This document shows, piece after piece, positions 14,716 through 26,915 of a stretch of DNA of 26,915 nucleotides (position 1 is its first letter; each line of letters starts with the position of its first letter). The stretch comes from a virus. The notes below the pieces were generated by a model that was not told where the DNA came from, did no database searches, and saw only the letters and a program-made list of their open reading frames with translations. The translations under genes and the position numbers were made by a program. The stretch is from positions 1 to 26,915 of IMG/VR virus record IMGVR_UViG_3300003690_002313. One strand, 5' to 3'.

Positions 14716-17700
14716 TTATGAACTCGGGTTGCTACTGGGCGACGGTGCAGGCCCTGCGGCGCTGCAGCCGCTATTGTCTTCCAGAGGTCGCCCAACGTTG
14801 TCTGTGGTGGGCGCCGCTGGCGGGGTAGCCCCGTGGTGGAACTCTATGCCTTCCTGTAAAGCCGTGATCGAGGTCTTAAAAGATGTTTCTGAGACTTCAG
14901 ACTTCACGCCAGTTACTAAATAATAGCCATGTAGTCCCAGATAGTTCAACTGTTCCCTCGCCGTATTCATCAAAAGAGGACTAACATAAATATATGTGCC
15001 GTTCTTATATAAATTGTTGCCCACCATATCAATCGAAACTGAATAAAGTTCTCGGAGCTGCTCCGGGCCGAGGGCGCCATCCTTTTGTATTTTTGCCTCT
15101 CGGAGGTAGGGCATGTCTTCCCTCTTGAAGCTAACTTTTTTCAGCAAGCTGCAGGCGGAGCCGATATATTGATGATAGATGCCGCGCTCCAGATCGTCCT
15201 TGAAATTGGCTGTCAAGTTACTTGGATTTGTGTCGGTGGATATCAAGATCATTCCCATCCCAACATCTTTAATATCGGCCGCGGCCGTCAAGGCCGCCGA
15301 CGCCCGGGCGATGGCTTCGATCGAAACACACCCTTTTGATTTTGATAGGGCCGGGGCCTGTCCTTTCTTATTATAAGATATAGGCTGTACATCAAAGCGC
15401 TGAAAGAGTTTTAAGTTTTTACCGAAGCAGCGGCCGCGGAGTGCGTTTGTAATTAACTGAGCTGTCATATCTTTAATAAAGTGAAGCAAGTAATAACTGT
15501 CGCGATCCTTGTCGATTACGTTCTTGATATACCAGTTCTGGAAGGATCGAATCGAAATGGGGATATCCCCTATATTAATAATTTTATATAACTTAGACAA
15601 ATTGCGCGAGTTGCCCCCGGTATTCGTTATTGCTTGTTGATAGAAAGAATCACGCAAATCACCACATTGAGCCCACTTGTCAATATTTTCGACAGTGGCA
15701 GCAAACTGAGCATCAATAAACTGTGTTTGTGATAAAAAGAAAGAAAAATCGAGGGGTTCTCCTCCATTATTTTCATCTATCTGCAGCAAGATATTATCAA
15801 TCATATCACCGAGATACATAAAGTTTATCGAGACTAGATCATCTTTCCCTTTCTGGGCTTTTTTATTATCTTTTTTCGTTTTCTTTGCATCTTTCTTGCC
15901 TGCTTTGTCTTTTTCAATCTCATCCAGTAATGCGCTTTCATACTCGGACGTTTTACTAACAGGGACGTCGGTGCCAAGCTTCTCGCGGGCACGTGCCATA
16001 CGATCTTCTTCTGACATTTTAAACTGTTGCTTGGCTTCTAGAAGTTCCGATACCGGAATATCAATGTGATATACTTTATCTGCTTCGTACAGTTTAGCCA
16101 ACAATTTTCGATATCTTGCAAGCTTATCTGTTTCTTCAAGTTCTTTTATTTCTTCTAAAAGTTCCTCTATTTCTTCCTCATTTTTTTCTTCTTGGTCGGC
16201 TTCGACACGGTCCGCGTCCTCCGACTTAAGCTTGTCTAGTTTCTCTCGCTTAGCTGTAATCGTATTCTCGTTCTTGCCGGGTGAAAAAATATCAGAGTTC
16301 GGGGCTGTCATGACCCCCGTCAAACTAGCTTGATAATTAACGGTTAACTGTAAGCTGCCGTTTTCTTTAAAATCAATATCGTGACGAGTTTGCTGTAAAA
16401 ACAGCGAAACGCGCGTTGCCTCGATGGCGTCTTTTAGCGCTTGAGCCCGAGTCATATTATTGTCGGCCGGAGAAGGCTGGCCCAGCTCAGGATAAATCTT
16501 TTCAAGATTAGGAGGGGTCGCCCAGCCTGCAACCACTTTAATCCGGAAGTTGGCTCCCGTATACTCGCGGTGTTTAACATCAAGACATGGATTCTTGGGC
16601 TTCTTCGACGGACTCGATCCTTTTTTCTTCTTCCTTATGCCCGGCGAGTTAATAATAAGATCTAAAAAGTTTGGTTCTGGTTCTCCATCGGCGCCCAGCG
16701 CGCCGGCCTGTGAGGCTTTATCGAAAAAATCGCCCACAGACTGAAACCACACCACCAGGGTGGCTGTTATATTATTGTCCACCTCTTCGGGCTGAACGCC
16801 TTCGAGTGCCCAGGAAAAGCTTTTAATACCTGCGCCGGGGACGCGGCCGACTTCCCCGGACATAATGCTTTCAACGTTTTGTTGACTTACAAAGTTAGGG
16901 ATTTTAAGCGGCGCCTCTTTTCCATTAGGTTTTCCATTTTTGTCATAATCCACACGAGAAATTTTTATATAGGGGACGAGGAGGGCATGGATATCAGGAC
17001 ACAAACTTAATATCTCTTTAACGGCAGCAGTTTGGCCGCCGTGATTTATAATACTGAGAGTATCCCCCGGATCTCCATTTGTATCAACAGTGATGAGTTT
17101 TTGATAAGGGCCGGAGAGTTCCTCGTGTTGGTCTTTTAATTTCATTATCCTCTCCAGGAGCACACATTGATAATCAATAGGGTCAAGGGTGACTTTTTCT
17201 TCCTCTTCTTCTTCTTCGGCGCTATCGGAGGTTGACCCTTCGCTAGCGCCGGCTGCGGCGGCGCCACCATCGCCAGCAGCTGCCGGGGCTGCATCGCCTG
17301 CTGCGCCCGCGGGAGTATCAGCGCCTTCGCCGGCCTGGGCGCCGGAGTCTGCATCGGTTGCATATTCATCTTTGTCCGCGCACGGCTGTTCAATCGCTGT
17401 CGCTTCATATATTGCAATCAAATAGTTTTCGGGAGACCCTTCGTCTTTTTCGGTGCTGCTGCCTATAGGGGGCGCACCGCTGGTGAACTGGCCGGAGTGG
17501 CGTCCGACCCAGTTAGTATAGACAAACTTCATGGAGTTTTTGAGACTCCCGACTGTTATCGTTGCACACTTAGTTTCTCCATCATAAGGAGGGGTGGTGT
17601 TAAGATGTTCTATGAGCTGCCGACGGCCGAAATTATAGGCGCGACGGGGGTTACTGTTCCACGATATCTCATCGCTCCGAGTGTTCGCTGGCCAGCCGAT

Positions 17701-18192
17701 CTCGACCCGCCATCTATCCCCGCCAAGATCGGTGATCTTAGAATCCTTTGAGCCCCTTGAAAACAGGCTCGGGCCCTCCAGATCGCCAGAGGGTTCAACG
17801 CCAGAGGGGGCACTCTCGTCGTCGTCTGCAGCGTCGTCATCGCCGGCGGCCGAGTCGTCGTCGTCGTCATCGGCAGCGTCGTCGTCATCGGCAGCGTCGT
17901 CGTCTTCTTCCTCTTCGGCGGGAGTCACATCATCAACAGCAACAGACCATACGGCAACAACGGAGCCCGAAGCAACGGAGTCGTCATATGAAGTAACACT
18001 ATCGTTGGTTACGCCGGATAAACTAAAAGAAGAATCAGAGGTACTGTTTTTATTGTTTACAAAATCCTTAATCTGGCTTTTAGCTGCCAGCTCCAACTCT
18101 TCTTTGGTATCCTCGTAGTCGTCCTGATCTGAGAAATCAGGCGCCATTTCGACGGTTGCAACGTATCTGCCCCCTTGTTCAACAACAGCCAT
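14716..18192 (-). CDS. Large baseplate/tail structural protein with acidic low-complexity insert
   Basis: The protein has 1158 residues. Residues 92-126 are almost only Asp, Glu and Ala. A second low-complexity stretch (about 283-332) is Ala/Gly-rich and ends in a run of Glu. About 640-800 is highly charged and probably coiled coil (EELLEEIKELEETDKLARYR). The last 300 residues are more ordered: YIYVSPLLMNTAREQLNYLG, then GYYLVTGVKSEVSETSFKTS, a pattern like the C-terminal domain of hub proteins (gp27/gpD-like), where a short strand ends in '...L.GYY.VTxV'. Hub function is inference from this and from position, right after the gp53-like gene. ATG with AGGGA 6 nt upstream, 2 bp after the preceding stop. 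Confidence 0.65.
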   Translation of the reverse strand: MAVVEQGGRYVATVEMAPDFSDQDDYEDTKEELELAAKSQIKDFVNNKNSTSDSSFSLSGVTNDSVTSYDDSVASGSVVAVWSVAVDDVTPAEEEEDDDAADDDDAADDDDDDSAAGDDDAADDDESAPSGVEPSGDLEGPSLFSRGSKDSKITDLGGDRWRVEIGWPANTRSDEISWNSNPRRAYNFGRRQLIEHLNTTPPYDGETKCATITVGSLKNSMKFVYTNWVGRHSGQFTSGAPPIGSSTEKDEGSPENYLIAIYEATAIEQPCADKDEYATDADSGAQAGEGADTPAGAAGDAAPAAAGDGGAAAAGASEGSTSDSAEEEEEEEKVTLDPIDYQCVLLERIMKLKDQHEELSGPYQKLITVDTNGDPGDTLSIINHGGQTAAVKEILSLCPDIHALLVPYIKISRVDYDKNGKPNGKEAPLKIPNFVSQQNVESIMSGEVGRVPGAGIKSFSWALEGVQPEEVDNNITATLVVWFQSVGDFFDKASQAGALGADGEPEPNFLDLIINSPGIRKKKKGSSPSKKPKNPCLDVKHREYTGANFRIKVVAGWATPPNLEKIYPELGQPSPADNNMTRAQALKDAIEATRVSLFLQQTRHDIDFKENGSLQLTVNYQASLTGVMTAPNSDIFSPGKNENTITAKREKLDKLKSEDADRVEADQEEKNEEEIEELLEEIKELEETDKLARYRKLLAKLYEADKVYHIDIPVSELLEAKQQFKMSEEDRMARAREKLGTDVPVSKTSEYESALLDEIEKDKAGKKDAKKTKKDNKKAQKGKDDLVSINFMYLGDMIDNILLQIDENNGGEPLDFSFFLSQTQFIDAQFAATVENIDKWAQCGDLRDSFYQQAITNTGGNSRNLSKLYKIINIGDIPISIRSFQNWYIKNVIDKDRDSYYLLHFIKDMTAQLITNALRGRCFGKNLKLFQRFDVQPISYNKKGQAPALSKSKGCVSIEAIARASAALTAAADIKDVGMGMILISTDTNPSNLTANFKDDLERGIYHQYIGSACSLLKKVSFKREDMPYLREAKIQKDGALGPEQLRELYSVSIDMVGNNLYKNGTYIYVSPLLMNTAREQLNYLGLHGYYLVTGVKSEVSETSFKTSITALQEGIEFHHGATPPAAPTTDNVGRPLEDNSGCSAAGPAPSPSSNPSS
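17815..17915. repeat. GTC/GAC-rich tandem repeat encoding Asp/Ala runs
   Basis: An 18-bp unit, gtcgtcgtcatcggcagc on the plus strand, occurs twice head to tail (17860-17877, 17878-17895), flanked by degenerate trinucleotide GTC tracts. In the coding frame it gives Asp-Ala blocks of the large baseplate protein. Such tracts change length easily by slippage. Confidence 0.8.
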
Positions 18193-19427: not shown

Positions 19428-19539
19428 ACTTCGCCGCATAAGCCCCTATGGGAAGCTCCTCGATAACTTTCTTAACAATATTTTCTATGGGCTCATCTCC
19501 TAGATATATCCGCAGCGGCGGCACCTCCGGGGGCGGCAT
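19426..19539 (-). CDS. Possible 37-residue protein overlapping the tape-measure end
   Basis: In the +1 frame relative to the tape measure an ATG (19539-19537) opens a 37-residue frame. It begins inside the last codons of the tape-measure gene and continues about 65 nt past its stop, with protein-like content (LGDEPIENIVKKVIEELPIG). Its stop overlaps a further ATG. No Shine-Dalgarno sequence is evident, so it could be translated by coupling, or be a frameshifted alternative C-terminus of the tape measure. The tail sequence looks like a genuine amphipathic helix. Confidence 0.4.
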   Translation of the reverse strand: MPPPEVPPLRIYLGDEPIENIVKKVIEELPIGAYAAK

Positions 19540-22500
19540 TGGTGTCGGCTGCAGCCGTCCCGGCGGGTTTCGCCGCAAAAGTACCTTCTTTAACAGGTTC
19601 GGGCGTAATCGGTTTCGCTGTAATAGTACCTTCTATAACGGCTTCGGGTGTAATCAAAGAATTATTAAACTCAGCCAATGCTTGAAGTTTCTTTACATTT
19701 AGAAATAGTAATGCAGCTGCGAACAGCCCGAGGCCCTTGGCCATGTCGCCAAGCGCTGCCCCAAGAAGGACGAGGCCCGGTAGGCCGTCTGCCATAATGC
19801 TCATAGACGCAGCCATCTTATCCATACCACTACCAACAAGAAGCATCCCGGTACCTAGAATCATCAAGGCCATCCCAAGTACTGCAATCGGTATAGCTGC
19901 CAATCCTAAAATCGGTGCGGCAAAAAGAAGACTCAAAGCTAAAACTCCAAATCCATAGGCGGCCGATATGAGACCTCCAGCTAGTTTTATTAGATTCCCA
20001 CCCAAAATCCCAAAAGCTCCTCCCAATTCAATAACAAATGCCGGCGGAATCAGAAGCATATTGGTTGTCAGCATCTGCATACCAAGCCCTATAACCATCA
20101 GTGCGGCGCCGACGGCCTTTAAAGCCAGCGACCACAGGAAGAGTGGGATAATCGAAAGTGCTATCATAGGAAGTGATATCAACAAAGCGCCGGCCATGGC
20201 TACAAACCCAATAGAGGCTAATAGGAGGCCACCTGCAAGGGTCAGCATTGCTATCCCCAGCCTCCCAACTGCCATAGCTAGCTCCATCATCTTATCGGGA
20301 GGTATTGTCAGGGCAGCATTCATAAAGAGTGCCATTCCTTTTGCGGCTATCATCATCCCCAATCCCATTACTACTGCCGCCATGGCAATTCCAAGTAAGG
20401 GTCCTGTAATTAGCAATAGTGGTATTAGAGCAAATGCAGCACCAATTCCGGCAGCAACCAACCCTACGCCCAACACTATCAAAGAGCCGCTCAGGGCATA
20501 TAGGGATAATGCCAGCTGGAACATAAGCACCGGCGGGATTTCAGACAGTTTTTCAATAAATAGCCCGAAGGCCCCCACCAGCAACGACAAGCCGTAGGCA
20601 GCGAGAGCAATGCCTGCTCCCATAAGTAAGAACGCGACGCCTAGGGCGATCAGGGGGATCGAGACCGGAGTAGCCGCGGCGCCGAGGGCCACTATCGCCG
20701 GGATCATGAAGTATAGAATGGCAACAAATCCGCCCATTACGAGCCCTATTGCCAGAACGGCGCCCACAATTTGTCCTCCAGTTAAAACTTGAAAGGATTC
20801 AACGAGCTTTGACAGACCCAGCGCAGCAATCGCGATGCCGCCGCCGATCATTAAAATGGCCGCGCCGAATGCAAGCATTTCTTTCCATGTGTCCTTAACC
20901 GCTTCGCCAAGCTGTTTGATTCCCTCAGTAAACGACTCCCATCTGCTTGTAGTATCAGGAGCGGGGGGCCCCGGTATTGGGGGCGCAGGAGGAGCGGGGC
21001 CTGGCGCCGGGCCCGGTCCTCCAGGAGGTCCCCCGGGCGGGCGCCCAAGGATTCGATCTCTGAGGTTCCCCAGCATCCCTCGTACGCCGCCGCGGTTCGC
21101 AACACCTTGTCTGGCTTGTTGAAATTTAATGACGGCCATAGTGAGCGCTGCCAGCGTGGCGACCGCGGTGATGCCTCCCCTCACAAATTTCTGAAACCCT
21201 TCTGGCGTATCATTCAACAGCCCTATGAGCCACGAGAACCCCTCGACTATCTTAGCGAAAGGCGTCAACATTACATCCATGGCCGTGATCAAACTATAAA
21301 AAGCATTCTTAAGCTTATCCATTACGGCCTGGGCTTCGCGCGCTGTCTCTGCAATCTTCTCTTGATTGCGAATCTCCATCTCTTCGGCCGCGGATAGTTC
21401 ACCAAACATTCTACGGGCGGTGTCAACGTCGACGCCCAAAGCATCAGCAATTGCCAGTTGTTCGAACTTGTTAAGTTCTGAGTAAGTTTGGCCGGCCATA
21501 TCCATTGATTGCTTAAGCATATCAATACGTTCTGCTTCTGAAGCATTTAACATATCGATAGAATTAAGGTAGGGGCCGCCTAAAATTGCATTAAGTTTGC
21601 CCACCTTCTTTGCGGCGCCATCAAAAGTATCAAAAGCCTTGCCAGATATAGCAACCAACTCAGAAGTAGACAACCCGGTGGCCTTGGATTGCTTTTCTAA
21701 ATGTTGAAACACCTCAACCACATCTTTACCATAAAAAGCGAGTTGCTTGGAAACTTGATTAAAGTCTTCGAACACTGCTTTGGTGGATTTTCCTAAGCTT
21801 TGGGCCGTCGCATGAAGCGTTTCAGTCAGCCCAACCAGTTCGCTCTCGTTAAATCCTAGCGACTTGGTGGCCCGATCGAAGATTTGACCAGAAGTTTGGC
21901 TACTAACCCCCAATGCATCTAACGCGACCGTTTGAGCAGTAATAGCCGTTTTTTGATCTTCAGATAAAGTGGTAAAATCGCTATACCCATCATACAGAGC
22001 GCCCATAGCTGCTGCGACTTCTTTGTGACCGGCGCCAAAGACGGCTACCTGGTCTCTTGTATTGGAAATCACCTTTCCATATGCCCCCATCGCACCGTCG
22101 TCTGCTGCGCCGGTCATGCGCCGGAAAGAAGCAGCCGATGAATCAGTGGCCATCGCAAGATTAAAACTTTCTGCGGCAATCTTTTTAAATACATTGAAGA
22201 ACGCCTCGCCGGAGGCGATGCTATCGATGGTTGAGGTCGCCCAGCCGTCAAACTCCGCGGCCGTTAAGGGTATTACCCGGGTAAGGTCTTCGGCGGCGCC
22301 ACCGATACTTAAAAAGCTGTTGGCTAGGTGGCCTGCTTTGGCTTGACCAAGTTCAAATTGTTGGTTAAGTTTTGCTTGAGCTTTGGCGGCGTCGACTTGC
22401 GCTTCAGCTAAGTCTTGTAATGCAACCCTTTGTTTCTCGTATACTTCCCAGCTGCGAGCGCCGGCCATCTGCTTGAGAATCTCTAGTTCTTCTCTTTTTC

Positions 22501-22756
22501 TTTTAAGATACGCTTCTTCTTCTGGGGCCAGTTCCCCCATGGCGCGCTTTTTGTTCGCTAAAACCCGAACTTCATCCTCGGTAGCTTTGCGGCTGGCTTC
22601 CGCTTGCTCCTTCGAAGAGGCAAAATCACCTGGAGTTCCTTCAACTGTGCGGGGGGCCCTTCCGCCGGGGCCGGAAGCGGGTGAGCCGCCCTGCGCAGCC
22701 GCGAGTTTTTCTAATGATTTTATAAGGGCTTCAAGTTGTGCGTCGGAAACCGCCAT
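19493..22756 (-). CDS. Tail tape measure protein
   Basis: The 1087-residue protein is the longest tail gene product bar one and lies between tail-assembly and baseplate genes, as tape measures do. Residues 1-140 are charged coiled coil (DEVRVLANKKRAMGELAPEE). About 140-560 are Ala/Ser-rich helices with LGVSSQTSGQIFDRATKSLG-like segments typical of tape measures. A Pro/Gly linker follows (about 573-600). About 628-1010 is a nearly continuous series of long hydrophobic helices rich in Gly and Ala (IGGGIAIAALGLSKL, IGLVMGGFVAILYFMIPAIV). The protein sets tail length inside the tube and probably enters the host envelope at ejection, where the hydrophobic half could form a membrane channel. ATG preceded by AGGGGG. 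Confidence 0.88.
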   Translation of the reverse strand: MAVSDAQLEALIKSLEKLAAAQGGSPASGPGGRAPRTVEGTPGDFASSKEQAEASRKATEDEVRVLANKKRAMGELAPEEEAYLKRKREELEILKQMAGARSWEVYEKQRVALQDLAEAQVDAAKAQAKLNQQFELGQAKAGHLANSFLSIGGAAEDLTRVIPLTAAEFDGWATSTIDSIASGEAFFNVFKKIAAESFNLAMATDSSAASFRRMTGAADDGAMGAYGKVISNTRDQVAVFGAGHKEVAAAMGALYDGYSDFTTLSEDQKTAITAQTVALDALGVSSQTSGQIFDRATKSLGFNESELVGLTETLHATAQSLGKSTKAVFEDFNQVSKQLAFYGKDVVEVFQHLEKQSKATGLSTSELVAISGKAFDTFDGAAKKVGKLNAILGGPYLNSIDMLNASEAERIDMLKQSMDMAGQTYSELNKFEQLAIADALGVDVDTARRMFGELSAAEEMEIRNQEKIAETAREAQAVMDKLKNAFYSLITAMDVMLTPFAKIVEGFSWLIGLLNDTPEGFQKFVRGGITAVATLAALTMAVIKFQQARQGVANRGGVRGMLGNLRDRILGRPPGGPPGGPGPAPGPAPPAPPIPGPPAPDTTSRWESFTEGIKQLGEAVKDTWKEMLAFGAAILMIGGGIAIAALGLSKLVESFQVLTGGQIVGAVLAIGLVMGGFVAILYFMIPAIVALGAAATPVSIPLIALGVAFLLMGAGIALAAYGLSLLVGAFGLFIEKLSEIPPVLMFQLALSLYALSGSLIVLGVGLVAAGIGAAFALIPLLLITGPLLGIAMAAVVMGLGMMIAAKGMALFMNAALTIPPDKMMELAMAVGRLGIAMLTLAGGLLLASIGFVAMAGALLISLPMIALSIIPLFLWSLALKAVGAALMVIGLGMQMLTTNMLLIPPAFVIELGGAFGILGGNLIKLAGGLISAAYGFGVLALSLLFAAPILGLAAIPIAVLGMALMILGTGMLLVGSGMDKMAASMSIMADGLPGLVLLGAALGDMAKGLGLFAAALLFLNVKKLQALAEFNNSLITPEAVIEGTITAKPITPEPVKEGTFAAKPAGTAAADTNAAPGGAAAADISRR

Positions 22757-22767
22757 TGTTTAACCCC

Positions 22768-23085
22768 CTAGTTTTTGAACGGCCACCTTAAGCCTGTCTC
22801 ACCTTCAAATCCGCCAACCGCTCTAGACAGCTCATATTTGCTCATCATCGTGCGCGAGTCTCCGAGACCATATTTCATATAGGCGTCCATATAACGCTTC
22901 TCGTTACCAAGGGCCTTCATAAAGGACTCAATTTGAGCTTGTGTACCTTTTATTGTGGTTGGGAAATCAAATCCGGCATGATATAAATCAATAAGCATTT
23001 TTCTCACGCTTAACGAAAAGTCCGTGTAAAGACGCTCGTTGAGGATAAGTTCTTTATTGTCTAGATTGATTACTGTTTTTTCCAT
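22768..23085 (-). CDS. Small tail-module protein upstream of the tape measure
   Basis: This is a 105-residue protein of unknown fold (TVINLDNKELILNERLYTDF, later KYELSRAVGGFEGETGLRWP). A longer frame from TTG at 23103 is possible, but the ATG at 23085 has a GAGGG 8 nt upstream and is preferred. Position just ahead of the tape measure, after the frameshifted gene pair and its terminator, suggests tail assembly or hub function. The stop lies 9 bp before the tape-measure ATG and contributes to its ribosome-binding site (TAGGGGG). No membrane segment or metal motif is visible. Confidence 0.7.
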   Translation of the reverse strand: MEKTVINLDNKELILNERLYTDFSLSVRKMLIDLYHAGFDFPTTIKGTQAQIESFMKALGNEKRYMDAYMKYGLGDSRTMMSKYELSRAVGGFEGETGLRWPFKN

Positions 23086-23116
23086 GCGGACATCCCTCAC
23101 CAATAAATAGTTATAT

Positions 23117-23147: not shown

Positions 23148-23351
23148 TTATCTCTTATGTTTTGATTTAGCCCCTTTTTGGGCTGCCTCCATTTGTTCGT
23201 TTTGAGTTTCGAACTCCTTAATCAGGCGCCGAACGAACCATCTGCGCAGTTGAGTGGGAAGGTTATAAGCTTCAAATATTGACCACCCACCATGGTGTTT
23301 TAATACAAATAACTCTTCATAAACGGCTTCTTGATACTCAGGACTTAGGCC
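23148..23351 (-). CDS. Short downstream frame (67 codons) joined to the gp26-like gene by probable frameshift
   Basis: In the +1 frame relative to the gp26-like gene, this frame encodes GLSPEYQEAVYEELFVLKHH, GGWSIFEAYNLPTQLRRWF and a basic end (AAQKGAKSKHKR). The HGGWS..EAYNLP..LR.WF core is protein-like, and I recall it from short ORFs in other phages at this location. No ATG, GTG or TTG is available between the frame's preceding stop (TAG at about 23385) and this conserved core, so independent initiation is unlikely. The T7 run at 23352-23358 just before the zero-frame stop offers a slippery site. The expected product is a fusion of about 352 residues. Confidence 0.75.
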   Translation of the reverse strand, partial: GLSPEYQEAVYEELFVLKHHGGWSIFEAYNLPTQLRRWFVRRLIKEFETQNEQMEAAQKGAKSKHKR

Positions 23352-24210
23352 AAAAAAACTCTGCCGTGATCGGCATACCTACTTTCCCCATATGATTACA
23401 ATTTTCACATTCAAAATCAAAGTTAAGATCCAAATCCGGCACAAGCGTATCATACGTTGCGCGGAGTTCACGTGAAAGGCGCGTGGGGCACTTCTCAACA
23501 AATCGTTTTATTTGGGCCCGGTCGGTAATATCATTAACCTGAACCACAATGGCTTCTAGCTGATCAGTGATGTTAGTATCTGGAAGCTTCAGTTTCCGTT
23601 TTTTCTCTCGACTAAGGGTAATCCTCTTTTCGTCAGCTCCTATTAAAAGTTTTACTTCAATGCCTAGGCCCTCATATTTCTCAAATGTAATAAGATAGTT
23701 TCCATTTTCCAATTGTTCTACCTGCTGAGAGGCTTCTTGTGCTTCTTTGGTTTCAAGCGCAGCAAGATCGAGGGTCGTCTCATTCTGTGTGGTACACGCG
23801 GGGCAGGTAATTGTTGTGTTATAATCGGCGCCGAAGCCGGTCATTCGGGCTGCAATCAAAAGAGCGTTTTTGTCACCTATTAAAAGATTGCTAGCTTTAA
23901 CCTTTTTGTTGACTACTAGTGAATCAATCAATCGATCAAGCGCGATGCCTTTTTTAATCAAAGCCTCTGAAGTAAGGATATCCTCTTCTTTAGCGGTCAT
24001 GTGTCGAATTTCTACACTCTCCACTCCATGCAGAGGATGGTTTTCCTTGTAGAGCGCACCCTTACTAGGAATGTCCACAAACTCTGTGGGGCTAATGAAC
24101 GAGAATATATCGTCTGGTTGTTCTGTTTGCTGTCTAAGAGCAGCGGGGGGAGGGATTGGCGCATCAGGCTGGGACGCACCCGTTCTCTCCGAGTTATTTC
24201 TTCGTGCCAA
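23338..24210 (-). CDS. Baseplate hub / tail-assembly protein, T4 gp26-like (T4_baseplate family)
   Basis: The 290-residue protein resembles the family named after T4 gp26. After a Pro-rich start it has FVDIPSKGALYKENHPLHGV (44-63), MTAKEEDILTSEALIKKGIA (71-90) with LDRLIDSLV, and IGDKNALLIAARMTGFGADY (111-130). Two Cys pairs, C136/C139 (TCPAC) and C268/C271 (CENC), should form a zinc ribbon. The C-terminus (GMPITAEFFWPKS) ends at TGA just past a run of seven T, where ribosomes probably shift into the 67-codon frame. The gene lies between tail tube and tape measure, the standard place for tail-assembly chaperone pairs. TTG start at 24210 with AGAAGGTG 4 nt upstream; no in-frame ATG nearby fits better. 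Confidence 0.8.
   Translation of the reverse strand: MARRNNSERTGASQPDAPIPPPAALRQQTEQPDDIFSFISPTEFVDIPSKGALYKENHPLHGVESVEIRHMTAKEEDILTSEALIKKGIALDRLIDSLVVNKKVKASNLLIGDKNALLIAARMTGFGADYNTTITCPACTTQNETTLDLAALETKEAQEASQQVEQLENGNYLITFEKYEGLGIEVKLLIGADEKRITLSREKKRKLKLPDTNITDQLEAIVVQVNDITDRAQIKRFVEKCPTRLSRELRATYDTLVPDLDLNFDFECENCNHMGKVGMPITAEFFWPKS
23352..23358 (-). other. Slippery T7 run, probable programmed frameshift site
   Basis: The transcript reads GAG UUU UUU UGG in the zero frame, four codons before UGA. Slippage of tRNA-Phe forward by one (or back by two) on the seven U enters the GGC CUA AGU frame that encodes the conserved 67-residue extension. A rare single-tRNA codon (UGG) in the A site would favour pausing. 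Confidence 0.65.
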
Positions 24211-24239: not shown

Positions 24240-24863
24240 CTACTGTGCTCCGCGACTGAGAGCGGAGCCTTCAAGTACTGTTTCGCCTAGGTCCGCGTTC
24301 GCTTCATTTGCAACGTACGTAGCCCAATCATACCTGATCGTCAGCTCAATATTAAGTAATTCTTCACCACTGTAGTCCAAATCGCCAAACTTAGCATTAG
24401 TGATGAAAGGATTGTTTAGTTTCCATGTGCCAATATCTTGACCAAATCCATTAAGCTCAACAATCTCCACAGCACCCAAAGTCGCCAAAGCGGACGCTTT
24501 GTTGGGAGTTCCTGGTCCGGGGCCGGGGCCACCGGGGTCTCCGCCACCGCCAAAAAAGGCGTCTTGATCGCCGGGATCAAAGTAGCCAGCTCCATAAAGA
24601 GCCCTATAAAGAAGCTCATTGCCATCGGGCTCAACGGCATTGATTAAAGTTGCACTTACGGTTTCCCAGGTAACGGCGCCAGGATAATAATACGTGTTAC
24701 CAAGAAACTTATGCTCTGTCTCTCCGATAGTATACGCGGGCTTGGTGACAGTCTTAGCTAAGTAACGAATGTCTCCTCCTGCGAGCGTGCTCAAATTTGG
24801 AAAATTCAATAGAAATCTATGTTGTCTCCGCGGTTCTGATGATGCTAAGTTCCAAAATGCCAT
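24240..24863 (-). CDS. Tail tube protein (T4 gp19-like)
   Basis: The 207 residues match contractile-tail tube proteins: an N-terminal RQHRFLLNFPNL, then RYLAKTVTKPAYTIGETEHK (33-52), FLGNTYYYPGAVTWETVSAT (53-72), and a C-terminal GDLDYSGEELLNIELTIRYD that gives the repeated inner-tube strand. A Gly/Pro-rich insert (about 105-119, GGGGDPGGPGPGPG) interrupts the core and is probably a surface loop. The protein stacks as hexameric rings inside the sheath. It follows the sheath gene as in T4. ATG with AGGAGA about 9 nt upstream; a 9-bp hairpin lies in the 69-bp gap after the sheath gene. Confidence 0.88.
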   Translation of the reverse strand: MAFWNLASSEPRRQHRFLLNFPNLSTLAGGDIRYLAKTVTKPAYTIGETEHKFLGNTYYYPGAVTWETVSATLINAVEPDGNELLYRALYGAGYFDPGDQDAFFGGGGDPGGPGPGPGTPNKASALATLGAVEIVELNGFGQDIGTWKLNNPFITNAKFGDLDYSGEELLNIELTIRYDWATYVANEANADLGETVLEGSALSRGAQ

Positions 24864-24932: not shown

Positions 24933-26915
24933 TTAATCGTCGAAAGATGCTCCCGTTCTTGTAATATTGAAATCGATTGCAATAAATTCGATTGCGCGTG
25001 TCGGCTTCAAGAAGATCTTCGCATACATAATGTTCCGATCAATCAAGTCTGGAGTCGTTGTGGTGTCGTCAAGTATTACCTTGAAGTCTGAGAGACCGAA
25101 GTTACTCTTAACTCCCTGTAAGAAGGGCTCAACTTGTGCCTTGAAGCGGTCCCACGTTACCTTCACATTAGGATCAAAAAGAATGCGCGAAGCAATCTGC
25201 GAGATGCGCTTCTTTATGAAAATCATCAGTCGACGCACGTTAATGCGATCAAGTGCCGATGGCGTAACCTGCAGGGTCTTCTGACCAAAGATTACAATAC
25301 CTTCAGCCGGGAACTTGGCGATGGGGTTAATATTCGCAGCGTAAAGATCATCACGATCCTTTCGGCGCAGATGATGGGCCACATCAACCACTGGGATACC
25401 AGCTGAACCTTCCGTTAGTCCGCCGCGGTTGAAGCCAGCCGGCGCAAACCAGACCTGGGTCTTCTTCTGAGAACTTGAGAAAGTGCCCAGAGCCGCCACA
25501 GAGGGAGGAGCCCAGATGAAAGAGCCGTTTAGAGTATCTCGTGCGCGAACCCATGGATAGAAAGTGCAGCCATACGAAGAGTTCAGACCTCGCGAGCGCA
25601 TGTTATTAACAGCGTCGCGAATTGAGCTTTCCGTATTGTTGCGTACCTCGGTCTGGCCGTCTTCTCGTGGTGAGAAACCGCCAGGAAGGTCAATAATCGC
25701 CAGTGCATCGGCACGATCTTCGCAAGTACGAAGAAGGTTTGTCGTAAGGCCTTCCTGCTTGAGGCCAGGCATCGTTGCCAGGTTCATTTCAACAACCTCG
25801 GGATCTGCGATTGCATCGATGGTGCGACGAATAGTGTTAAAAACATAACTATTCTGATCCGTTGCGCTAGAGTTCAGATATCGAGTGCTGCTATTGAAAG
25901 GATCCATCTCATCGACTTCAGTTCCATCGAAGCCGCCATAAAGGGGAACAGTGAATCTGTCATAGCCGGCATCAAGAACGCCGCTAACAGCGCCGTCCAC
26001 AGCAGTCAGAGACTGTCCTGCGCGGCCGCCACCGGAACCAGCATGGGAACCACTCACCCAAGCTCCAACAGAGCCTGAAACGTCGTCGAGCGTAAACTCA
26101 ACAGAGCGTTCGCTACCGGCGGGAGAAGCAAACATTGACCCAACAATGCCGCCGCGGGGGCGGAGAAGGTCGATGTTAGAAGGGTCAAACACCGTGCTGC
26201 CAGGACCCTTGGCCGTCTGGTACCCAAAATATGCATCCGTATTGTTGCTCAAGCTACCTGCTGAGGCGCTGGCACGCAGTTCGGGAGCGGGATAGAGGAC
26301 AAGGAAGTTGGCCGGACCGGAAGTGCCGCCGAGAGTTCCCGCGATAAAGACAGATCCGCTACTGGCGGCCGTAAGGCCCGGGTACGAGTATCGATTCGCG
26401 TTGCCGGTCGAGCCAGAAATCCAGTTTCCCTTCTCGTCGGTGGCCACCAACTCCTCGTCATCATACTTAACCATTCCTTGGAATCCAAAAGGAACCAGAA
26501 CAGGATTAGTGATACCAGCATTAACGTCTGAGTTCATCTCAACACGAATATATTTTGAATTATTGTCCCAGTCGCCGGCCTGAATATATCGACGCTCGGT
26601 CTCTTCCCAGGTTAGACGCTTATCGCCAATCTTACGGGCAACATAGTTAGAAGAATTGGGATTCAAATCACAGTTGGCAAACATCTCGACCACATTTACA
26701 ACATTATCAGAATCACTGAGATGTCGGACGACCACAGTAAAGGCGCCATAGTCGGTTGAATTGTTTGTTGAACGCTTGATGTCTTGAATAGAAACTTTAA
26801 TATTTCTGTTGGTCCAGTCACCGGGCTCTTCGAGGGCCACAATCTTAAAAAGGTTTTGTGGCAGATCTGCGGGGCCCAAACGACAACTAATACTCTGAGG
26901 ACTTTCCGAGCCCTG
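24933..26915 (-). CDS. Contractile tail sheath protein (T4 gp18-like), 5' end beyond the window
   Basis: The frame is open to the right edge. A TTG at 26879 could start a 648-residue product, but codons upstream (SPQSISCRLGPADLPQ) continue the protein without stop, so the gene is 5'-truncated by the window. Sheath hallmarks: the early NVVEMFANCDLNPNSSNYVA segment, a central Gly/Ser-rich variable region (about residues 150-300), FYPWVRARDTLNG and WAPPSVAALGTFS (the conserved 'P.P...AG' sheath core), LRRKDRDDLYAANINPIAKF and the C-terminal arm PTRAIEFIAIDFNITRTGAS, which links neighbouring subunits. It drives tail contraction. T4 gp18 has 659 residues, so little is likely missing. Confidence 0.92.
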   Translation of the reverse strand, partial: QGSESPQSISCRLGPADLPQNLFKIVALEEPGDWTNRNIKVSIQDIKRSTNNSTDYGAFTVVVRHLSDSDNVVNVVEMFANCDLNPNSSNYVARKIGDKRLTWEETERRYIQAGDWDNNSKYIRVEMNSDVNAGITNPVLVPFGFQGMVKYDDEELVATDEKGNWISGSTGNANRYSYPGLTAASSGSVFIAGTLGGTSGPANFLVLYPAPELRASASAGSLSNNTDAYFGYQTAKGPGSTVFDPSNIDLLRPRGGIVGSMFASPAGSERSVEFTLDDVSGSVGAWVSGSHAGSGGGRAGQSLTAVDGAVSGVLDAGYDRFTVPLYGGFDGTEVDEMDPFNSSTRYLNSSATDQNSYVFNTIRRTIDAIADPEVVEMNLATMPGLKQEGLTTNLLRTCEDRADALAIIDLPGGFSPREDGQTEVRNNTESSIRDAVNNMRSRGLNSSYGCTFYPWVRARDTLNGSFIWAPPSVAALGTFSSSQKKTQVWFAPAGFNRGGLTEGSAGIPVVDVAHHLRRKDRDDLYAANINPIAKFPAEGIVIFGQKTLQVTPSALDRINVRRLMIFIKKRISQIASRILFDPNVKVTWDRFKAQVEPFLQGVKSNFGLSDFKVILDDTTTTPDLIDRNIMYAKIFLKPTRAIEFIAIDFNITRTGASFDD

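Follow-up and report, generated by a model that had tools for sequence, protein, structure and literature searches.

The gp26-like gene and the 67-codon reading frame that follows it on the minus strand very probably form a single recoded gene that encodes a tail assembly chaperone, in which a +1 ribosomal shift, favoured by an upstream RNA hairpin, would join the two frames. They lie in a metagenomic IMG/VR virus fragment of 26,915 bases, which is referred to here as the window. The arrangement is shared by many marine T4-related phages.

Most ribosomes are predicted to stop at the TGA of the gp26-like frame, which would yield the short form of the protein (TAC-N). A minority would shift at UUU UUU UGG, where tRNA-Phe would slip +1 from the UUU at 23355-23353 to the UUU at 23354-23352. 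The GGC at 23351-23349 would then be read next, giving a long form (TAC-NC) with a three-helix gp51-type domain. The hairpin, carried in mRNA that has just been translated, would refold behind the ribosome beside the E site and make slippage forward more likely than slippage backward. The lambda G/GT pair suggests by analogy that tail tube subunits may be recruited by the extension and that the tape measure protein may be coated by the short form.

The gp26-like gene and the small +1 frame

The minus-strand gene order is sheath, tube, gp26-like gene, 67-codon frame, a small ORF, and probable tape measure. The gp18-like tail sheath (24933..26879) matches phrog_23 (6.5e-63) and PF17482. The gp19-like tail tube (24240..24863) adjoins the gp26-like gene upstream and matches phrog_4542 (2.8e-20). 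The probable tape measure protein (19493..22756, 1087 aa) lies downstream and is assigned by size, hydrophobic segments, and position, having no family match in Pfam or PHROG. The pair therefore sits between tail tube and tape measure, as the preliminary description had placed it. Between the small frame and the tape measure gene is an ORF of 105-111 aa (22768-23103, minus strand) with no significant Pfam or PHROG match; Mel-JY01 has a small ORF at the same place. Elsewhere in the window, downstream of a gp53-like gene, positions 14716-18192 (minus strand) encode an 1158-aa protein with no PHROG match. Its N-terminal third has long Asp, Glu, and Ala runs, and stretches rich in Lys and Glu follow.

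The gp26-like gene (23338..24210, minus strand) encodes 290 aa, starts with TTG behind an upstream AAGGTG, and ends with TGA. It is the predicted short form. The protein matches Pfam T4_baseplate (PF12322) with E=2.7e-15 and 57.1 bits, against a curated cut-off of 24.5, over profile positions 12-219 of 219, and matches phrog_150 (baseplate hub) at 1.2e-18. It contains the Zn-ribbon cysteines CPAC and CENC. AF2 was run on the gp26-like part and the extension as separate halves, and the gp26-like model has a pLDDT of 85.8. A Foldseek search with this model returned nothing significant (E above 1), and a sequence search of solved structures gave no chaperone match. When 465 chains were re-aligned to the model, the top two rows were YqbN (3klu), which we take to be a tail chaperone homologue, and the HK97 TAC (2ob9). 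Each has a Z of 5.5, a value too low to be relied on by itself, and the next row has 3.5. The modeled resemblance of the gp26-like protein to known chaperones is thus modest.

The small frame (23148..23351, minus strand) runs from GGC (23351) to TAA (23150-23148) and lies at +1 to the gp26-like frame. Its 67 residues, GLSPEYQEAVYEELF...KHKR, form the predicted gp51-type C-terminal domain of the long form. The 3' end of the gp26-like gene reads GAG UUU UUU UGG CCU AAG UCC UGA, and the stop soon after the T run, with a +1 step leading into the second frame, is as the preliminary description had it. The content of the small frame, which had been judged to look conserved, has 50-87% protein identity in most relatives; the block TTTTTTTGGCCT is nearly invariant, with variable positions on either side. 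The AF2 model of the extension consists of three helices with a pLDDT of 90.

The small +1 frames and the -1 gp51 frames of cyanophages match profile to profile (96.6%, E=6.5e-10) and are homologous. The window's small frame has no direct phrog match, including to phrog_634 (gp51 C-terminal domain). By its profile-to-profile homology alone, the small frame is assigned to the gp51 C-terminal domain. Both domains are thereby homologous to T4-like gp26/gp51, which are published chaperones, and this supports the earlier suggestion that a gp26-type protein and its small partner would be the tail assembly chaperone pair here.

DUF6760 (PF20546) was considered as a family assignment and rejected, with 20 bits against a curated cut-off of 27. 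A link to contractile injection systems through DUF6760 was rejected as well: the match in the window is below the cut-off, eight phage genomes have no match, and the controls have sub-cut-off matches only.

Conservation and variants of the putative slip site

The putative slip site, UUU UUU UGG, is at 23350..23358 (minus strand) and is assigned by conservation and natural variants. It contains the T7 run at 23358-23352. Of 580 relatives found among viral contigs, 80 were kept, and a second search with the sheath added overlapping loci. Both parts are present in 137 loci, of which 89 are distinct, the window included. The small frame is at +1 in 89 of 89. The site is TTT TTT TGG CCT in 85 of them, TTC TTT TGG CCT in three, and TTT CTT TGG CCT in one. 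Because the same +1 relation and site occur in all 89 distinct loci, chance is excluded.

Around the shift there is almost no variation at bases -7 to +4, while the flanks vary, in proteins whose identity goes down to about 45%. The gp26 stop may be TAA, TAG, or TGA, and its position also varies. TTT serves as the second Phe codon in 88 of 89 loci, compared with 74% TTT over the rest of these genes, a preference whose nominal P is overstated because the loci are related. A -1 shift at the window site meets TAA after two codons (TTG GCC). The canonical -1 arrangement, X XXY YYZ with the downstream frame at -1, is not the one in the window, where the relation is +1, in keeping with the expectation of a shift unlike the common -1 type. 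A plasmid search returned chance matches only, and an Rfam search returned nothing above gathering. One relative from a Winogradskyella bin (L452:3190-3250) has the junction TTT TTT TTC CCT rather than TTT TTT TGG.

Three further viral searches, which started from Flavobacterium phage immuto, whose site is CUU_UGG, from Microcystis phage Mel-JY01, and from the huge phage LR756508, gave 139 distinct loci with a readable end. The +1 frame is open across the junction in 133 of these Mel-JY01-like, immuto-like, and huge-phage-like loci. Their sites are TTT TTT TGG (86), TTT CTT TGG (27), TTC TTT TGG (10), CTT TTT TGG (3), TTT or CTT before TAC (3), and TTT CTA TGG (4). YUU followed by U, which would allow the P-site tRNA to re-pair at +1, is present in 129 of the 133, and the other four are UUU C. 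Rhodothermus phage RM378 (TTT TTT TGG AAT) is counted among the 86, and a search from RM378 returned only itself. Single examples of more distant gp26 ends with an open +1 frame are Streptomyces phage BRock (L182), where the end suggests UUU_CGC, Streptococcus phage GXN1 (L178), where the end suggests UUU_CGU (or CCC_CGA), and Listeria phage LIS04 (L179), where it suggests UUU_UUA.

A sequencing or assembly indel in the homopolymer, with the gene truly in one frame, is suggested by a T7 run in a metagenomic fragment. This explanation is already refuted by conservation and its probability is practically nil: the same frame relation occurs in about 220 distinct loci and in the isolates Mel-JY01, immuto, and RM378, and includes sites that are not homopolymers.

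Transcriptional slippage, in which RNA polymerase would make mRNAs with 6 instead of 7 U and so fuse the frames, is very unlikely. A T6 transcript would be in frame, and T7 is present in 85 of the 89 loci. However, no T run longer than four exists in 42 of the 133 sites (TTT CTT TGG or TAC, TTC TTT TGG, and TTT CTA TGG), and the run is interrupted in four of the 89, with the same frame relation and product, which is evidence against slippage by the polymerase. Such slippage would also have no need for a hairpin upstream of the run.

The preliminary description left the shift as either +1 or -2, and of these only the +1 part has stood. A -2 ribosomal frameshift, which would add one extra Phe, reaches the same frame, has a precedent in phage Mu (PMC5009743), and is permitted some re-pairing by the T7 run. 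It is nonetheless highly improbable. At UUC UUU UGG, found in 3 + 10 distinct loci, a -2 shift puts tRNA-Phe on UCU with nothing to pair, whereas a +1 shift puts it on UUU with full pairing, which favors +1. The upstream hairpin would also be expected to oppose backward movement.

The small frame could instead be a separate gene, started by stop-start coupling or from a non-standard codon, and this is unlikely. In its favor, 54 of 74 cyanophage-type -1 loci have an ATG just past the gp26 stop that is annotated as the gp51 start, and two small ORFs among the immuto-like loci (L355 and L361) have their own ATG. These two are derived and are the only such cases found within the +1 set. Some ATG, GTG, or TTG is present in the longer open +1 frame in 106 of 124 distant +1 loci, but stands behind an SD-like motif in only 20, and such start codons are not diagnostic. 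Against a separate gene, the +1 frame of the window opens just 27 nt ahead of GGC and has no ATG, GTG, or TTG from its opening through 57 nt past GGC, in agreement with the initial observation that it lacks a usable start. No start codon at all is present in this frame in 58 of the 89 loci, and one stands behind an SD-like motif in just 2. A separate gene would leave the near-invariant YUU_UGG and the TTT-codon preference unexplained, and protein similarity begins at FFGL, which is inside the overlap. A +1 ribosomal shift remains the preferred reading of the junction.

The predicted hairpin upstream of the putative slip site

A potential RNA hairpin, UGCCG-AUCA-CGGCA, is located at 23362..23375 (minus strand) and is the proposed +1 stimulator. 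It did not figure in the preliminary description. The hairpin ends 3 nt before the T run, which places it 3 nt before the putative E-site UUU and 6 nt before the P-site UUU. It came to light when the window junction was folded and is backed by synonymous shuffling, pairing, and covariation. Folded as a single sequence, the window junction has no unusual overall structure (z +0.84).

Synonymous shuffles that keep the amino acids and the family codon usage were used for comparison. In the window's family, the region from -25 to -8 folds better than the shuffles, with a mean z of -2.6, and with a z of -2.94 (se 0.21) over 56 representatives of less than 80% identity. All other upstream offsets scanned have a z of about 0, as does the downstream region from 0 to +135 nt, where a downstream RNA stimulator was sought. 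In 66 of 71 loci the 3' arm has ACG as its Thr codon, versus 15% ACG over the rest of these genes. ACG is lacking in a few rows, several of which form a stem in a shifted register, for example, GCCGC-UAACU-GCGGC. At degenerate positions, pairs are formed in 61, 55, and 37 of 71 distinct sequences, versus 10.2, 31.2, and 12.4 expected. When relatives are included, one stem pair changes from G-C to A-U in 7 of 44 rows. The stem scores higher for covariation than all 500 shuffles and all slid versions, a score inflated by related rows. Judged by these comparisons, the hairpin in the window's family is under strong synonymous selection; as compensatory change is clear at one pair only, this selection might act on the nucleotides for some other reason.

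The hairpin signal is weak among representatives of the Mel-JY01-like (z -0.9) and immuto-like (z -0.6) +1 lineages, and the cyanophage-type -1 class has no such hairpin (z +0.25). Ahead of the hairpin, about 28 to 37 nt before the junction, the gp26 codons of the window's family show a purine-rich synonymous bias, in which Gly, Lys, and Val favor GGR, AAG, and GTG well above family usage.

In reporter work, an upstream hairpin that refolds near the E site lowers -1 and raises +1 frameshifting in both 80S and E. coli 70S ribosomes, and it mimics the internal Shine-Dalgarno duplex of prfB (PMC6321510; PMC3639245). The effect depends on hairpin stability, and the -1 attenuation depends also on closeness, with about half lost between 2 and 5 nt (PMC6321510; PMC3639245). 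The hairpin studied here has 4-5 bp in most loci and is far weaker than the 12-bp hairpin tested in vitro. Poly-U is ambiguous between -1 and +1, and a -1 shift in the window soon meets a stop, so a device that blocks backward and favors forward movement would fit this site.

Some Bacteroidota have a hidden anti-SD (PMC9976891), and the hairpin was considered as a substitute for a Shine-Dalgarno duplex in such hosts. This was rejected: starts in the window's family stand behind SD motifs in 58% of cases, versus 8% in the control, so the hairpin is not a stand-in for an unusable anti-SD. For immuto-like loci, the corresponding values are 13% and 10%. Most binned relatives (L447-L454, MAG contigs) are in Flavobacteriales bins, and L447 keeps both the site and the hairpin. 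Shine-Dalgarno starts are rare in Bacteroidota and are used by the window's family, which makes the binning or the host assignment doubtful.

Known systems and alternative arrangements of the junction

Lambda G/GT and its relatives, reportedly treated by Xu in 2004 and reviewed by Atkins in 2016 (PMC5009743), likewise pair a short form with a long form that arises rarely, by frameshifting, and lie between tube and tape measure, the chaperone role being presumed for the window's pair. They differ in that the lambda shift is -1 and in that the protein families differ, save for a possible shared fold. Other shift directions among tail chaperones are -2 in Mu and a probable +1 in the archaeal myovirus HSTV-2 (PMC5009743).

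As summarized in PMC10885494 and PMC12846349, the work that assigned the tail assembly chaperone role to gp26/gp51 in T4-like phages is that of Vladimirov, Gautam and Davidson (2022, Virology 566:9-15), so the chaperone identity of these genes is not new. By the same two accounts, the short gene of T4-like phages contains -1 poly-T slippery sites, and some of these phages instead have a short gene and a long fused gene. The window's pair shares with these the N-domain family (PF12322/phrog_150), a homologous C-terminal domain, short and long forms, and the neighborhood. The difference is -1 at poly-T, or two genes as in T4, versus a putative +1 at UUU_UGG with an upstream hairpin.

In the +1 shift of prfB (RF2), at CUU UGA C, a P-site YUU likewise slips onto UUU, with a duplex upstream by the E site, and CUU_U itself is used by some relatives of the window's site. 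Unlike prfB, the window has UGG rather than a stop in the A site, an mRNA hairpin rather than an SD:anti-SD duplex, and a different gene and purpose. In engineered refolding hairpins (Cho 2013, PMC3639245; Huang 2018, PMC6321510), a hairpin beside the shift site also favors +1 and opposes -1. Those +1 tests were reporter constructs, whereas the window's hairpin would be a natural conserved +1 element. In the literature covered in part here, no natural phage example of an upstream +1 hairpin was found, nor, in a search with subscription papers mostly outside its scope, an earlier +1 report for T4-like gp26/gp51. As far as found, what is new is the +1 version of the T4-like frameshifted chaperone, with its upstream hairpin.

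A query with the gp51 frame of P-SSM4 gave 574 phage records, from which 22 junctions were read out. A gp51-type frame is present at -1 after T TTT TT[C/T/G] in cyanophages, Pelagibacter phage HTVC008M, and KVP40-like Vibrio phages, and also in Rhizobium, Agrobacterium, Aeromonas, Pseudomonas, and jumbo coliphages. Among 74 distinct cyanophage-type contig loci, the -1 relation holds in 73, and 73 contain the heptamer T TTT TTC. Where the heptamer is present, the codon before TTT TTC ends in T whatever the amino acid (Ser, Ala, Asn, or Asp). In public T4-like records including P-SSM4, HTVC008M, KVP40-like, Rhizobium, PBECO4, and Paride phages (L163, L165-L175, L181, and L183), gp51 is given an internal start, appears as a stray hypothetical, or goes unannotated; the -1 frame, which is conserved, starts inside gp26 at FF.

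The T4 genes 26 and 51 are on opposite strands (L184:4803-6229). Both proteins match the whole of PF12322 and can be aligned to one another (E 2e-6), and gp51 has in addition a phrog_634 domain fused in frame. They are paralogs, in which gene duplication took the place of frameshifting, and are probably the published case. In the two immuto-like loci with separate starts (L355:2170-2520 and L361:2170-2500), the +1 frame is broken and the small ORF, which has a new N-terminal stretch, is started by an ATG of its own just past the gp26 stop; frameshifting has apparently been lost for a separate gene. On a 236-kb contig, a cyanophage-type locus (L236:2001-2894) fuses gp26 in frame to the gp51 domain and lacks T TTT TTC. 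The same two domains thus occur in five arrangements: +1, -1, separate ORFs, in-frame fusion, and duplicated genes.

In the tree, a +1 clade of 21 rows is supported at 95/94, and a clade of the -1 class plus T4 at 100/99. The jumbo -1 pair PBECO4/Paride falls among the +1 rows at a placement so weakly supported that one and two direction switches are not separable. The direction has changed at least once.

Taken together, it is reasonably probable that this is a natural phage +1 element, in which a refolding upstream hairpin, rather than an SD duplex or a downstream structure, drives tRNA-Phe on UUU_UGG. In this single family, the junction would have switched among -1 (U UUU UUC, with no hairpin in the cyanophage class), +1 (UUU_U with a hairpin), and separate and paralogous genes, all of which would make a short and a long chaperone.

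In the public genomes examined, the annotation lacks the long chaperone form or splits it, and it labels the small frame hypothetical, mis-starts it, or omits it. If the hairpin works as predicted, it would be a counterpart in nature to upstream hairpins that have until now been studied in engineered +1 reporters. The hundreds of natural variants of this one junction are material for asking what makes a bacterial ribosome go +1 rather than -1. The direction of a functionally equivalent frameshift would be free to change in evolution while its position and product are kept.
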